A DNA stretch of 34,072 nucleotides from Kluyvera intermedia. GTDB lineage: Bacteria; Pseudomonadota; Gammaproteobacteria; Enterobacterales; Enterobacteriaceae. Below the pieces are notes generated by a model, which saw only the letters and a list, made by a program, of their open reading frames with translations, was not told where the DNA came from and did not search any database. Of the stretch, positions 8,813 to 33,952 are shown piece after piece. The DNA is taken from the NCBI RefSeq assembly GCF_021440345.1, contig NZ_JAKCNS010000064.1, positions 1 through 34,072 of the forward strand, given 5' to 3'. Every line of letters starts with the position of its first letter. Position 1 is the stretch's first letter. The translations under genes were made by a program, and so were the position numbers.

Positions 8813-10477
8813 TCAGAAGGTTTCCCAGTTTTCCCCAGTGTCGGTGACAGCTGCTTTACGCAGCGTCGTCGGCGCAGCCGCAACCGTACTCGCTGGCTCA
8901 CGCGCCGCCGCAGCCTGGCCTTGTTGAATACGGAATACCGCCACCGCCTGTGTCAGACGGCTCGCCTGCTCTTCCAGCGCGGCAGCCGCCGCCGCCGACT
9001 CCTCCACCAGCGAGGCGTTCTGCTGAGTCACGCGATCCATCTCGGCAACCGCCAGCCCAACCTGGTCGATACCGCGGCTCTGCTCATCGGACGCCGAGGC
9101 GATTTCACCCATGATATCGGTCACGCGGGTGACTGCATTCACGATTTCATCCATGGTTTCACCGGCGCTTTCCACCAGCGTAGAACCAAGATCGACACGG
9201 TTTACCGAATCTTCAATCAGGCTCTTAATTTCACGAGCAGCCTGGGCGCTACGCTGTGCCAGGTTACGCACTTCGCCCGCGACCACCGCAAAACCACGCC
9301 CCTGCTCGCCTGCACGTGCGGCTTCAACCGCGGCGTTCAGCGCCAGAATGTTGGTCTGGAAGGCAATGCCGTCAATGACGCTAATAATATCGGCGATTTT
9401 CTGCGAACTGGCGGTGATGTCGCGCATCGTCTGCACCACGTTATCCACCACTTTACCGCCCTTCTGCGCGGTTTCCGACGCGCTCAGCGCCAGATGGCTG
9501 GCCTGACGGGCGTTTTCGGCGTTCTGCTTCACGGTAGCGGTCAGCTCTTCCATGCTGGCTGCTGTCTCTTCCAGAGAAGCGGCCTGCTGTTCGGTGCGGG
9601 AAGAGAGATCGTTGTTGCCCATCGCGATTTCGCTGGCACCACTGTAAATCGCATCGGCACCCTGACGCACTTCACCCACGGTACGCGCCAGCTCGCCCTG
9701 CATATGACGCAGAGAGTGTGCCAGTTCGCCCATTTCGTTGTGGCTCTCGACATCAATACGCTTCACCAGATCGCCACCAGCGATATGACGAATGCTGTCG
9801 ATTAAACGATTCAGTGGAGAGATAAGCGTTTTGCGCACACCCAACCAAACGGAGATGATCACCGCCAGTACCGCCACCATCACGGCAAACAGGATCCACA
9901 TCGCCTGGGTGTAAGACGCATTGCTATCTTTCACCGCCAGATCGTACAGACTGTCGTTCTGCTGCAGGTAGTTGACGTAGGCTTTCTCAAAACCATCCTG
10001 ATAGCCCTGGGTTGGCTGATCGAAGAAATCATTGATCTTGCCTGCCCCCAGCAGTTGAATAAGCTCTGCCAGCGCACCGTGGTAAATATCGTAGTTACGC
10101 TTAATTTCCAGCGCAGCCGCTTCGCTTTGACGCGGATCGCGCGGCAATGCTTCATATTCGGTCCAACGCTTTTCCGCTTCCCCCAGAGATTTGCTGGCAA
10201 TCTGCATCAGTTCAGCGACGGTTGCACCGCTACCGATATTATTCTGATCCATCATGTAGCGGATCCCGGCGCGGTTTAAGGTATTGCGCGTTTGCAGCAG
10301 TGCAACCCAGCTACCGTTTAGCCCGGACTGCTGCGTACGCACCGTTTGCAAAATGGTGAAGTTCTCTTTGTCATGCTTCAGGGAGTTAAAGAACAAGCCA
10401 CCTGATGCCAGCTGCAACAGGCCAAACAACACCAAAACCAGCACAAGGCTGGTGACGATTTTAAGACGGTTTAACAT
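8813..10477 (-). CDS. tsr: Methyl-accepting chemotaxis protein, serine receptor
   Basis: Inner-membrane chemoreceptor for serine and, in E. coli, autoinducer-2 and pH. Its 554 residues compare with 551 in E. coli Tsr. A transmembrane helix lies near 8-30 and another near 193-213. The serine-binding residues Arg64, Asn68, Arg69, Arg73, Phe151, Phe152 and Thr156 are all present at E. coli numbering. A HAMP domain follows, then the signalling hairpin with its invariant tip ([20 protein letters not shown]). The protein ends in NWETF, the CheR/CheB docking pentapeptide. The ribosome site AAAGGAAAGAG precedes the ATG. A sigma-28 promoter lies upstream at 10507-10533, so it is a class 3 flagellar-regulon gene. 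Confidence 0.98.
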
Positions 10478-31971: not shown

Positions 31972-32328
31972 CTACTTTCCGGCGATGTATTCCACATCCA
32001 TCGACACACAGTCAACAAAGCCGATACGGGCAAGGGTGGTGGCGGGGCCTTTGGCGACGAACGGTACGCGATATTCATCGTCTTCAATGGTCACTTCGCC
32101 AAAAACTAATTCTGGCGTCAGGGTACCGAGGGTACTTTTTTCACGATACCAGTGGGGAAAACGGCCTCGTAAATAGTCGTCTTTAACCATTAATAGTGCT
32201 TTGCGGGAGAAGTCATGGCGGCACAATTCGCTATCATCCGAGCCAATTTCATAAATGAAAAATATCACCGCAACGCCCGAAGTCAGCAGGGCACAAAATA
32301 GTGCAGTCACTAATAATGTTTTTTTCAT
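31972..32328 (-). CDS. YebF/Cmi-family exported protein
   Basis: Small protein of 118 residues, the same length as E. coli YebF. It has a signal or anchor segment (about 4-27). The pattern C...VKDDY...R..HW...K..G...P...DDEYRVPF..KG...VDC..MDVEY follows that of YebF. The two cysteines, Cys36 and Cys107, correspond to the disulfide pair of YebF and of colicin M immunity protein Cmi. The hydrophobic start lacks a clear cleavage site, and FFIYEIG could keep it membrane-anchored, as in Cmi. Its role may be export to the medium or immunity to a bacteriocin, and neither can be decided. It is not part of the MarR operon by spacing (95 bp). Confidence 0.72.
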   Translation of the reverse strand: MKKTLLVTALFCALLTSGVAVIFFIYEIGSDDSELCRHDFSRKALLMVKDDYLRGRFPHWYREKSTLGTLTPELVFGEVTIEDDEYRVPFVAKGPATTLARIGFVDCVSMDVEYIAGK

Positions 32329-32786
32329 GCTGAAGGTAAGTTGATTGGTTTAAAGGGTTATGGCATCAATAGTCATTCTAGAAACAAATAAATTCTTGTA
32401 AAGCAATGCGTTGGTATTGTTTCGTAAATATCGTTCGATTCAATCAATAAAAAATACCAAGCCTACGAAATTAATCATAACGATAGCCAGTAAACGCATC
32501 ATTTCGTTTTAGATACGATAAAAATGACACTTTATCATTCCTACAGCATTAGGACCGTCTAATCTATTATCATTAAAAAGTCATCCTTGAGTACGTAAAA
32601 TGAAATCGGTTTGTATATTTATCGGATATATATTATTTCAATAAAGACAATAAATATAAAACTTGGGAGATATCATTTACCTCACGCATTATTTTTGGTG
32701 GTTGCGACAAACCTCCCTCTTCCGCTTAACGAAATCACAGGATCCAAGAGTGGACAACCGCCCCCGTTTGGTGGCAGGATAAAAAG
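32329..32786. other. AT-rich intergenic region upstream of trpS2
   Basis: No gene is seen in this 458-bp stretch. It is markedly AT-rich, especially 32380-32690, unlike the coding DNA around it. It must contain the promoter of the minus-strand YebF-like gene and that of the trpS2 leader. No confident -35/-10 pair and no TrpR operator (CTAGTTAACTAG type) was seen. H-NS binding is possible for such DNA. Confidence 0.5.
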
Positions 32787-32840
32787 ATGAACACAAATGT
32801 GACCGTCCTTCGCTCAAACCGTTGGTGGCTGCCTGCATAA
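32787..32840 (+). CDS. Trp-type leader peptide of trpS2
   Basis: A 17-codon ORF, MNTNVTVLRSNRWWLPA, with two adjacent TGG Trp codons at 32823-32828, just inside the first hairpin. The ribosome site AGGATAAAAAG precedes the ATG. It is too short for ordinary gene finders. Its layout matches TrpL of the trp operon, though the sequence itself is not a copy of it. Confidence 0.9.
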   Translation: MNTNVTVLRSNRWWLPA

Positions 32841-32903
32841 CAGGCGGCACGGGTTACGTTACCTATTTTCCAGAAGCCGCCGAAAGGCGGCTTTGTTGTT
32901 TCT
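32828..32903 (+). promoter_or_regulatory. Trp attenuator of trpS2 (mutually exclusive hairpins)
   Basis: Strand 1 GCTGCCTG (32828-32835) pairs with strand 2 CAGGCGGC (32841-32848). Strand 2's GGCGGC can instead pair with strand 3's GCCGCC (32876-32881). Strand 3 AGCCGCC (32875-32881) pairs with strand 4 GGCGGCT (32886-32892) around a GAAA loop, followed by TTGTTGTTTCT. Stalling at the Trp codons would free strand 2 to block the terminator. Confidence 0.92.
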
Positions 32904-32944
32904 CAGTGGCGTCTTTCGGCTCAATGCATGATGAGGAGTCTCTG

Positions 32945-33952
32945 ATGAACACCACCCACACAATCCTGACCGGCGACCGTCCAACTGGGCAACTGCATCT
33001 TGGCCACTATGTTGGTTCTCTGCGCCTGCGCGTCGAACTTCAGCATGAACATCAACAGTTTATCCTGATTGCCGATCTTCAGGGGCTGACGGATAACGGC
33101 AGCAATCCGCAGAAAATCAGCCACAACATCCTTGAAGTGATGGCCGATTATCTGGCCGTCGGCATCGATCCAAAACGCACTACCATTTGCCTGCAGTCAG
33201 CCCTCCCTGCGCTGGCTGAGCTGACCGCGCTATATATGAATATCGTCACCGTCGCCCGCGTCGAGCGTAATCCGACGGTCAAAAACGAGATTGCGCAGAA
33301 AGGCTTTTCCAGCGCGCTGCCGGTGGGTTTTATGGCCTATCCTATAAGCCAGGCCGCCGACATTACCGCTTTCAACGCAGACTTTGTGCCTGTGGGCGAC
33401 GACCAGCTGCCAATGATTGAGCAAACCAACGAGATTGTGCACAAAATGAATAGCCTGACGACCACGCCGGTGCTGCGCCACTGTAAAGCGCTGCTGAGCG
33501 ATGTAAGCCGTTTGCCGGGTATCGATGGTGGCGCGAAGATGTCGAAATCGTTAGGCAATACGCTGACCCTTTCCGCCAGTGAAAGCGAGATCCACCAGGC
33601 GGTAAGCGCCATGTATACCGACCCCAACCACCTGCGGGTGGCCGATCCGGGGCAGATCGAGGGTAACGTCGTTTTCACGTACCTGGATGCTTTCCATCCA
33701 GATAAAGCCCTTGTCGCCGAGATGAAAGCCCACTATCAGCGCGGTGGCCTTGGTGACAGGCAGTGTAAGAATGTGCTGGAGAGCTGCTTACAGGAGTTGC
33801 TGGCTCCTATCCGCGAACGCCGCGCCAGCGTGGTTCAGGACAAAGGACAGTTGATGGAGCTGCTGCGCCAGGGCAGCGAGCGGGCACACGAAGTGACACA
33901 GCAGACGCTGCATGCCGTGAAACGCGGGCTGGGATTGCCGGTGCTGTTCTGA
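32945..33952 (+). CDS. trpS2: Tryptophanyl-tRNA synthetase, second type (TrpS2)
   Basis: Class I tryptophan-tRNA ligase of 335 residues. The HIGH-type motif is HLGH at 18-21, the KMSKS loop is at 198-202, and GDDQLP at 151-156 is the family tRNA/ATP region. Enterobacteria have a housekeeping trpS in the dam-rpe-gph group. This gene lies elsewhere, with its own trp attenuator, and its sequence is clearly different from E. coli TrpS, so it is a likely second copy. I chose ATG 32945 (RBS GAGGAGT); an upstream start would read through the attenuator. Conditional expression when charged tRNA-Trp is low is inferred. Resistance to a TrpS inhibitor is a possibility. Confidence 0.92.
   Translation: MNTTHTILTGDRPTGQLHLGHYVGSLRLRVELQHEHQQFILIADLQGLTDNGSNPQKISHNILEVMADYLAVGIDPKRTTICLQSALPALAELTALYMNIVTVARVERNPTVKNEIAQKGFSSALPVGFMAYPISQAADITAFNADFVPVGDDQLPMIEQTNEIVHKMNSLTTTPVLRHCKALLSDVSRLPGIDGGAKMSKSLGNTLTLSASESEIHQAVSAMYTDPNHLRVADPGQIEGNVVFTYLDAFHPDKALVAEMKAHYQRGGLGDRQCKNVLESCLQELLAPIRERRASVVQDKGQLMELLRQGSERAHEVTQQTLHAVKRGLGLPVLF

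Follow-up and report, generated by a model that had tools for sequence, protein, structure and literature searches.

The trpS2 leader and its layout

Near the end of a 34,072-nucleotide stretch of DNA from Kluyvera intermedia (contig NZ_JAKCNS010000064.1; the whole stretch is referred to here as the window) lies trpS2, the gene for an auxiliary tryptophanyl-tRNA synthetase (TrpRS), and the region in front of it has the build of a ribosome-mediated tryptophan attenuator (Table 1). A small open reading frame (ORF) containing two adjacent Trp codons (hereafter WW) is followed by segments, named strands 1 to 4, whose 1:2, 2:3 and 3:4 pairings exclude one another, the last being a terminator hairpin with a GAAA loop, while a further segment, strand 5, lies between this terminator and the Shine-Dalgarno (SD) region of trpS2. 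The leader peptide, the exclusive pairings and the GAAA-loop terminator had all been proposed in the original prediction, and their coordinates were confirmed by script.

As isolated duplexes in the window, 1:2, 2:3 and 3:4 have calculated energies of -16.9, -14.6 and -15.8 kcal/mol, respectively, and a terminator scan of positions 32560-33000 returned a single site, the 3:4 hairpin, against a mean of 0.4 in shuffled sequences. The window leader folds more stably than its shuffles (z -2.48; 3 of 200 shuffles were as good), and the energy model predicts that, on its own, it adopts 1:2, 3:4 and a pairing of strand 5 with the SD region (5:SD). A search with the leader and T-box families of Rfam 15 gave no match to the window at gathering score, the matches in 32700-32960 all being sub-threshold, and no Rfam T-box was found in the 14 plasmid-collection loci searched (L184, in our numbering of loci, was left out). 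On sequence grounds, the reading of this leader as a Trp attenuator is well supported.

Table 1. Coordinates of the predicted elements of the trpS2 leader and of the gene in the window
Feature	Position	Strand	Basis
Predicted -35, TGGACA, followed by an 18-nt spacer	32751..32756	+	-35-like hexamer counts
Predicted extended -10, TGG-CAGGAT (TGGCAGGAT, 32772-32780)	32775..32780	+	ends 6 nt before leader ATG
Leader peptide ORF, MNTNVTVLRSNRWWLPA, 17 residues, probably leaderless	32787..32840	+	coordinates checked by script
Tandem Trp codons (TGG TGG), putative regulatory stall site	32823..32828	+	script check, conservation
Strand 1	32827..32835	+	script check; 1:2 swap test
Strand 2, starting right after the leader stop codon	32841..32849	+	script check; swap test
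Strand 3	32873..32881	+	script check; 2:3 swap test
GAAA loop, part of the partner region of strand 5	32882..32885	+	script check, sliding-window covariation
Strand 4, 3' arm of the terminator	32886..32894	+	terminator scan
Interrupted U tract, TTTGTTGTTTC	32892..~32902	+	read from letters; terminator scan
Strand 5, GGCGTCTTTCGGC, a complement of strand 3-loop-4 and an imperfect one of the SD	32908..32920	+	covariation
trpS2 SD region, GAGGAGTC	32933..32940	+	script check, covariation
trpS2, auxiliary TrpRS, 335 residues	32945..33952	+	profile and homology matches

Conservation of the tandem Trp codons

Retention of the WW codons had been set beforehand as a test of the original prediction, and a WW-containing small ORF was found within 330 nt upstream of the gene in 168 of 180 trpS2-related loci, the window included. 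When the same rule was applied to 1600 other 330-nt windows of 80 loci, with the leaders excluded, 37 contained such a mini-ORF (an earlier control under a stricter rule, in which two short loci could touch the leader, gave 23 of 1600), and a chance mini-ORF was rejected as an explanation on this comparison. TGGTGG is absent from the 330 nt in front of the genome's own housekeeping trpS. The 180 loci contain near-duplicates and one place that was fetched twice, and reduce to 144 distinct leaders and 71 representatives less than 92% alike, 70 of which were used in the swap tests described below. Because the set consists of best matches only, one source list having kept the best 80 of at least 581, distant relatives are under-represented.

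The spacing of the leader stop codon is also conserved, falling 12-18 nt past the first Trp codon in 64 of the 70 leaders, so that a terminating ribosome could cover strand 2. A separate arrangement is seen in the Morganella type (L103, L104, L106, L109, L144, L146 and L147), where the leader peptide continues past WW (WWRTTCGA...) and the stop lies 42 nt past the first Trp codon in both leaders scored (L103 and L104), unlike the enterobacterial geometry.

Covariation of strands 1 to 4

The original prediction had named covariation in the strands as a further check, and this was assessed with a swap test, in which duplexes between strands taken from the same leader are compared in energy with duplexes between strands exchanged among leaders. 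The test covered 1:2, 2:3, 5:SD and the pairing of strand 5 with the strand 3-loop-4 region, with 3:4 being assessed by folding; it is not fully corrected for relatedness, which counts against the reading that we build on it. Over all 70 leaders both 1:2 (z -8.7) and 2:3 (z -5.0) covary, as they do among the 40 enterobacterial-type leaders (z -6.8 and -2.4, respectively). Taken alone, the 14 Vibrio-type leaders retain the signal for 1:2 (z -3.5) and give none for 2:3 (z 0.1, p 0.54), and in the 11 Shewanella-type leaders neither pairing is significant (2:3 p 0.66).

The lineages also differ in what follows the 3:4 hairpin. Of the 40 enterobacterial-type leaders, 28 have a T-rich tail, defined as at least five T in eight, as do 9 of 11 of the Shewanella type and 3 of 5 of the Aeromonas type, but only 3 of 14 of the Vibrio type. 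The other 11 Vibrio-type leaders keep the strands with fewer than five T in eight after 3:4, and as the tail is mostly missing from this type, control there may act mainly on translation.

A fifth strand complementary to the terminator and the Shine-Dalgarno region

Alignment of the leaders revealed a conserved segment between the terminator and the SD that complements both the strand 3-loop-4 region and the SD region, and this strand 5 covaries with both of its partners. In the swap test, 5:SD and 3-loop-4:5 reach z -12.9 and -13.2, respectively, over the 70 leaders, -7.9 and -6.5 in the enterobacterial type, and -4.8 and -4.2 in the Vibrio type. As a control for relatedness, a window was slid along the alignment with permutation allowed only inside lineage groups. 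When the SD is the target, the scan gives z -7.6 at strand 5 and -2.6 to -5.0 at its overlapping neighbours, with windows off strand 5 ranging from -3.4 (at strand 2) to +2.6; scanned against strand 5, the signal peaks at 3-loop-4 (z -7.8, overlapping windows -5.3 to -6.9), with windows that do not overlap 3-loop-4 ranging from -2.3 to +2.9. A comparable covariation signal was found nowhere else in the leader.

Complementarity of the same kind is present in more distant leaders. With arms picked by eye, the downstream partner of strand 3 and loop is better than that of shuffled sequences in Burkholderia (p 0.001, 13 consecutive pairs), Variovorax (p 0.001), Methylocystis (p 0.002), Roseibium (p 0.019) and the window itself (p 0.022); the partner in Deinococcus is no better than its shuffles (p 0.52).

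Promoter spacing and a possible leaderless start

In 53 of the 71 representatives, a -10 signature hexamer (A at position 2 and T at position 6) is separated from the leader ATG by a gap of exactly 6 nt, as against at most 11 at any other gap between 0 and 35 nt, and the extended TGn motif is present in 48. With this spacing, transcription would start at or beside the AUG, which suggests that the leader mRNA begins at its own start codon and would be translated as a leaderless message. A precedent is available in Sinorhizobium meliloti, where the trpL/rnTrpL RNA begins with the start codon (ATG) of its leader peptide (PMC7298713). The evidence for a -35 element is less clear. A hexamer with at least four of the six bases of TTGACA at a spacing of 16-19 nt was counted in 48 of 71 representatives, compared with 12-27 of 71 at six shifted anchors, yet 48 were also counted at a shift of +20, where the extended -10 (TTG-TA) probably mimics a -35; a generic promoter scan did not list the -35 of the window. 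None of the five Aeromonas-type leaders has the -10 at gaps of 5-7 nt. An SD-like string (AGGA, GGAG or GAGG) occurs before the leader in 9 of 71 representatives, including the window, and could serve as an SD if transcription starts further upstream.

Upstream of the leader, a divergent ORF for 118 residues lies on the minus strand (window positions 31972-32328), and an equally long ORF is also divergent upstream of trpS2 in Kluyvera sichuanensis (L034:1636-1992).

TrpS2 and a possible link to indolmycin

The trpS2 product is a tryptophan--tRNA ligase (TIGR00233, above cut-off), and its closest named relatives among the matches listed are four Kluyvera proteins of 93-96% identity. Three proteins of the same genome match PF00579, namely a presumed tyrosyl-tRNA synthetase, an assignment that rests on length and N-terminus, the housekeeping TrpS, and TrpS2, so that a second TrpRS does stand beside the housekeeping enzyme as the original prediction held. 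Gln46 of TrpS2 aligns with a His in the genome's own TrpS, and Gln is found here in 180 of 180 TrpS2 sequences. We take this position to be that of His43 in the Geobacillus TrpRS, where, presumably, a His-to-Asn change confers resistance to indolmycin. The closest solved sequences are 2a4m, titled ‘Tryptophanyl-tRNA synthetase II’ (expectation value (E) 2.4e-112), and 1yi8 (E 2.6e-112), both of which we take to be the Deinococcus enzyme.

One relative of TrpS2 is encoded in Pseudoalteromonas luteoviolacea HI1 (L108) behind genes for, in this order, a methyltransferase, a glyoxalase-family protein and a class I/II aminotransferase. The four genes fit unk5, unk3 (aldoketomutase), unk2 and unk1 in the indolmycin cluster that section 9 of PMC5069768 proposes for three other strains of the P. 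luteoviolacea group. The L108 gene sits in what looks like an indolmycin cluster. In the protein tree, its TrpS is sister to an Enterovibrio plasmid TrpS, both lacking WW and both nested among attenuated genes, and this single case fits a picture in which the producer would keep the enzyme always on and the others would make it on demand. The relative in the presumed cluster and the invariant Gln at the putative His43 position together make a link to indolmycin plausible, and TrpS2 is probably less sensitive to inhibitors of the indolmycin kind that act at the Trp site.

Another gene order of note is that of Rhizobium plasmid pRL23b4 (L190:1-2499), where trpS, with no WW leader, stands close behind genes for an FAD-dependent oxidoreductase and a coproporphyrinogen-III-oxidase-family protein; this may be a further natural-product operon that includes a resistant synthetase of its own.

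Distribution across lineages and plasmids

TrpS2 is patchily distributed, being present in 41 of 295 genomes of the family (E ≤ 1e-60) and, at E ≤ 1e-90, in 65 of 394, 2 of 369 and 25 of 398 genomes sampled at the order, class and phylum level, respectively; these samples overlap, and the window's own genome is counted in each. The WW leader is not confined to the order, as 9 of the 15 loci from outside it in the phylum-level search have one. In the plasmid collection, 102 records match, and the leader is present in 9 of the 15 loci fetched; those with WW include Variovorax and Burkholderia (beta-proteobacteria), Methylocystis and Roseibium (alpha-proteobacteria), Deinococcus and one Streptomyces, and those without it are from Rhizobium, Acinetobacter, Enterococcus, S. 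epidermidis, Bacteroides and a second Streptomyces record. In Streptomyces sp. BHT-5-2, a WW leader lies about 330 nt upstream of a distant TrpRS match of 39% identity. Within an Escherichia coli collection, 2 of 5426 genomes carry trpS2, in each case on a plasmid and with a WW leader, and these two plasmids are among the nine plasmid-collection loci with WW. In a tree of 55 proteins (56 were chosen and L198, below the search threshold, was left out), the WW label needs 7 changes compared with 13.4 in shuffles, a count in which L076, which reads LW, was mislabelled as WW. The placement of Cocleimonas inside Vibrionaceae and of Providencia inside Enterobacteriaceae suggests gene transfer.

Several other plasmid records were seen alongside these. 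Of those listed, 17 of 30, all from Klebsiella, match only residues 77-335 of the query (NZ_CP096267.1 and NZ_CP084820.1 are examples), and two listed rows with partial matches fall under an annotated IS1 transposase. Related TrpRS of about 55% identity, with the same Gln, are encoded on an S. epidermidis plasmid (L187, trpS 8992-9999) and an E. faecium plasmid (L197), neither of which has a WW leader or an Rfam T-box at gathering score. The tree places the S. epidermidis plasmid protein next to a nearly identical TrpRS from L196 (NZ_CP107771.1), a plasmid of 9.3 kb whose assignment to Streptomyces griseorubiginosus is possibly the result of contamination.

A model of control and the alternatives

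Sequence comparison shows the leader, its WW codons, strands 1 to 4 and the covariation of strand 5 with each of its partners. We infer further that the leader would sense the charging of tRNA-Trp and control trpS2 at two points. When Trp-tRNA is scarce, a ribosome stalled at WW would cover strand 1, 2:3 would form and transcription would go on; when it is ample, an unstalled ribosome at the stop codon would cover strand 2 and the 3:4 terminator would form. If the leader is not translated at all, 1:2 would form, which would also permit 3:4. Strand 5 may then provide a second, translational gate. Once a transcript has run past the terminator, strand 5 would cover the SD of trpS2 if 3:4 is formed (off), and with 2:3 formed, the loop and strand 4 would take up strand 5 and leave the SD open (on). 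Both gates would have the same sign, being on under a shortage of Trp-tRNA, and the spare TrpRS would be induced however the shortage arose, a poisoned main TrpS being one such cause. We give a probability of roughly 0.78 to this reading, namely a sensor of tRNA-Trp charging with two gates of the same sign before a spare TrpRS that is probably tolerant to inhibitors of the indolmycin kind. A more elaborate version is offered tentatively, at somewhat less than an even chance, in which the leader mRNA is leaderless, the two gates act in series, the Vibrio type has largely lost the U tract of the terminator and may be controlled in translation only, the cassette is horizontally mobile and the producer may have dropped the switch.

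Several observations weigh against the model, some of which concern the leader as a whole. WW is missing from 12 of the 180 loci, namely L076 (which reads LW), L096 (a Candidatus Enterovibrio plasmid), L108 (P. luteoviolacea), L172, L176 (at a contig edge), L178, L179-L182 (52-57% identity), and L138 and L183, which are the one place fetched twice. In addition, the stop codon lies 24-42 nt past the first Trp codon, beyond strand 2, in 6 of the 70 leaders (L103, L104, L137, L140, L141 and L142), and these stand outside the simple picture in which a terminating ribosome covers strand 2. The remainder concern strand 5. Neither of its pairings is significant in the 11 Shewanella-type leaders (5:SD p 0.077; 3-loop-4:5 p 0.60), and when single sequences are compared with their own shuffles, 5:SD reaches p ≤ 0.05 in 20 of 71 representatives and in one of five alpha-proteobacterial, beta-proteobacterial and Deinococcus relatives (Roseibium, p 0.046). 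The window is not among these, and the best partner of its SD is no better than in shuffles (p 0.73). With hairpins chosen automatically, only 4 of 14 loci (L188, L189, L208 and L209) show p ≤ 0.02 for the pairing of strand 3 and loop with strand 5, in a procedure that chose implausible hairpins in several loci outside the order.

The calculated energies do not predict a clean switch. With 2:3 formed, the state in which strand 5 is engaged and the SD is free lies on average 6.4 kcal/mol above 2:3 with 5:SD, and comes within 3 kcal/mol of the SD-paired state in 11 of 70 leaders; the predicted gain in SD exposure is only 0.05 on average, although 56 of 70 leaders shift the expected way. Equilibrium folding failed to prove the second gate, with 5:SD favoured even when 2:3 is formed. 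The energy model describes equilibrium, without the order of synthesis, coaxial stacking or 30S binding, and given that it predicts no clean release, a second gate would need co-transcriptional kinetics or competition from the 30S subunit.

The strongest alternative accepts the attenuator and places TrpS2 in ordinary tryptophan starvation, for example as an enzyme adapted to low Trp, and not in inhibitor resistance. The leader would sense charging whatever the cause of the shortage, and in Salmonella trpS2 moves with the genes of Trp biosynthesis. In a Salmonella Typhimurium biofilm, trpS2 (STM4508) is up two-fold with trpD, C, B and A (PMC2805695), and in a Salmonella tolC mutant trpS2, mtr and trpABCDE are down (PMC12506092), the relevant passages of both papers making no mention of a TrpRS inhibitor. 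These published data fit control by Trp status. Against a role in starvation alone stand the relative in the presumed indolmycin cluster and the invariant Gln at the putative His43 position, and the patchiness of the gene within the family, the tree with its suggestion of transfer and the plasmid copies all resemble an accessory resistance gene. We regard this alternative as credible, if clearly the less probable account.

A second alternative is a plain four-strand Trp attenuator in which strand 5 is conserved for some other reason, such as a steady partial occlusion of the SD or a hairpin that stabilises the mRNA. It gains from the folding energies and from the weakness of 5:SD in the window and in the alpha-proteobacterial, beta-proteobacterial and Deinococcus relatives taken singly. 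What speaks for the second gate instead is that the three-way covariation peaks at the right windows under lineage-restricted controls, that complementarity of strand 3 and loop with strand 5 recurs in the beta- and alpha-proteobacteria named above, and that 11 of the 14 Vibrio-type leaders keep the strands without the T-rich tail, where control may be translational; we consider a four-strand attenuator alone unlikely. A special substrate role is very improbable: the TrpRS II of Deinococcus is the partner of nitric oxide synthase in making nitro-tryptophan, and 2a4m and 1yi8, presumably this enzyme, are the closest solved sequences, but control by charging would better suit a general backup.

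Comparison with known systems

The original prediction of a Trp attenuator is supported, and it overlooked the precedent in Streptomyces, strand 5, the promoter spacing of the leaderless type and the occurrence of the leader outside the enterobacteria. An attenuated auxiliary antibiotic-resistant TrpRS was reportedly described in Streptomyces by Vecchione and Sello in 2010. Like the system described here, it has a second TrpRS gene preceded by a Trp leader and a terminator, and the regulation goes in the same sense; the present leaders occur in gamma-proteobacteria and other lineages and have a strand 5 that covaries with the SD. An attenuator has also been predicted for trpS2 of Streptomyces avermitilis (PMC1262725), and PMC6804068 describes an indolmycin-resistant auxiliary TrpRS in Streptomyces griseus. 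A literature search whose coverage mostly lies outside subscription journals, and did not take in the comparative-genomics work that PMC1262725 cites on attenuators in proteobacteria, showed no description of an attenuator in front of trpS2 in this group.

With the enterobacterial trpL, the leader shares tandem Trp codons and the logic of 1:2, 2:3 and 3:4, but it controls a TrpRS rather than biosynthesis, has a -10-like element adjoining the ATG, includes strand 5 and has no Rfam match at gathering score. The pheST attenuator differs in that it concerns another amino acid and what is, presumably, an essential housekeeping synthetase. It is, in gamma-proteobacteria, like the present system in controlling an aminoacyl-tRNA synthetase operon (PMC1262725). 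The S. meliloti trpL/rnTrpL shares Trp attenuation and an RNA that starts at the leader ATG, but precedes trpE(G) and not a TrpRS gene (PMC7298713).

An attenuated and probably inhibitor-tolerant TrpRS would extend from Streptomyces to enterobacteria and other Proteobacteria. Carriers of trpS2 include Klebsiella, Enterobacter and Salmonella loci as well as plasmids, and an inducible spare target of this kind could go unnoticed when susceptibility to TrpRS inhibitors is assayed. Set beside these known systems, the new part is the predicted arrangement of five strands together with the covariation with the SD, a concrete case in which to test whether one ribosome-mediated attenuator works first at the level of transcription and then at that of translation.

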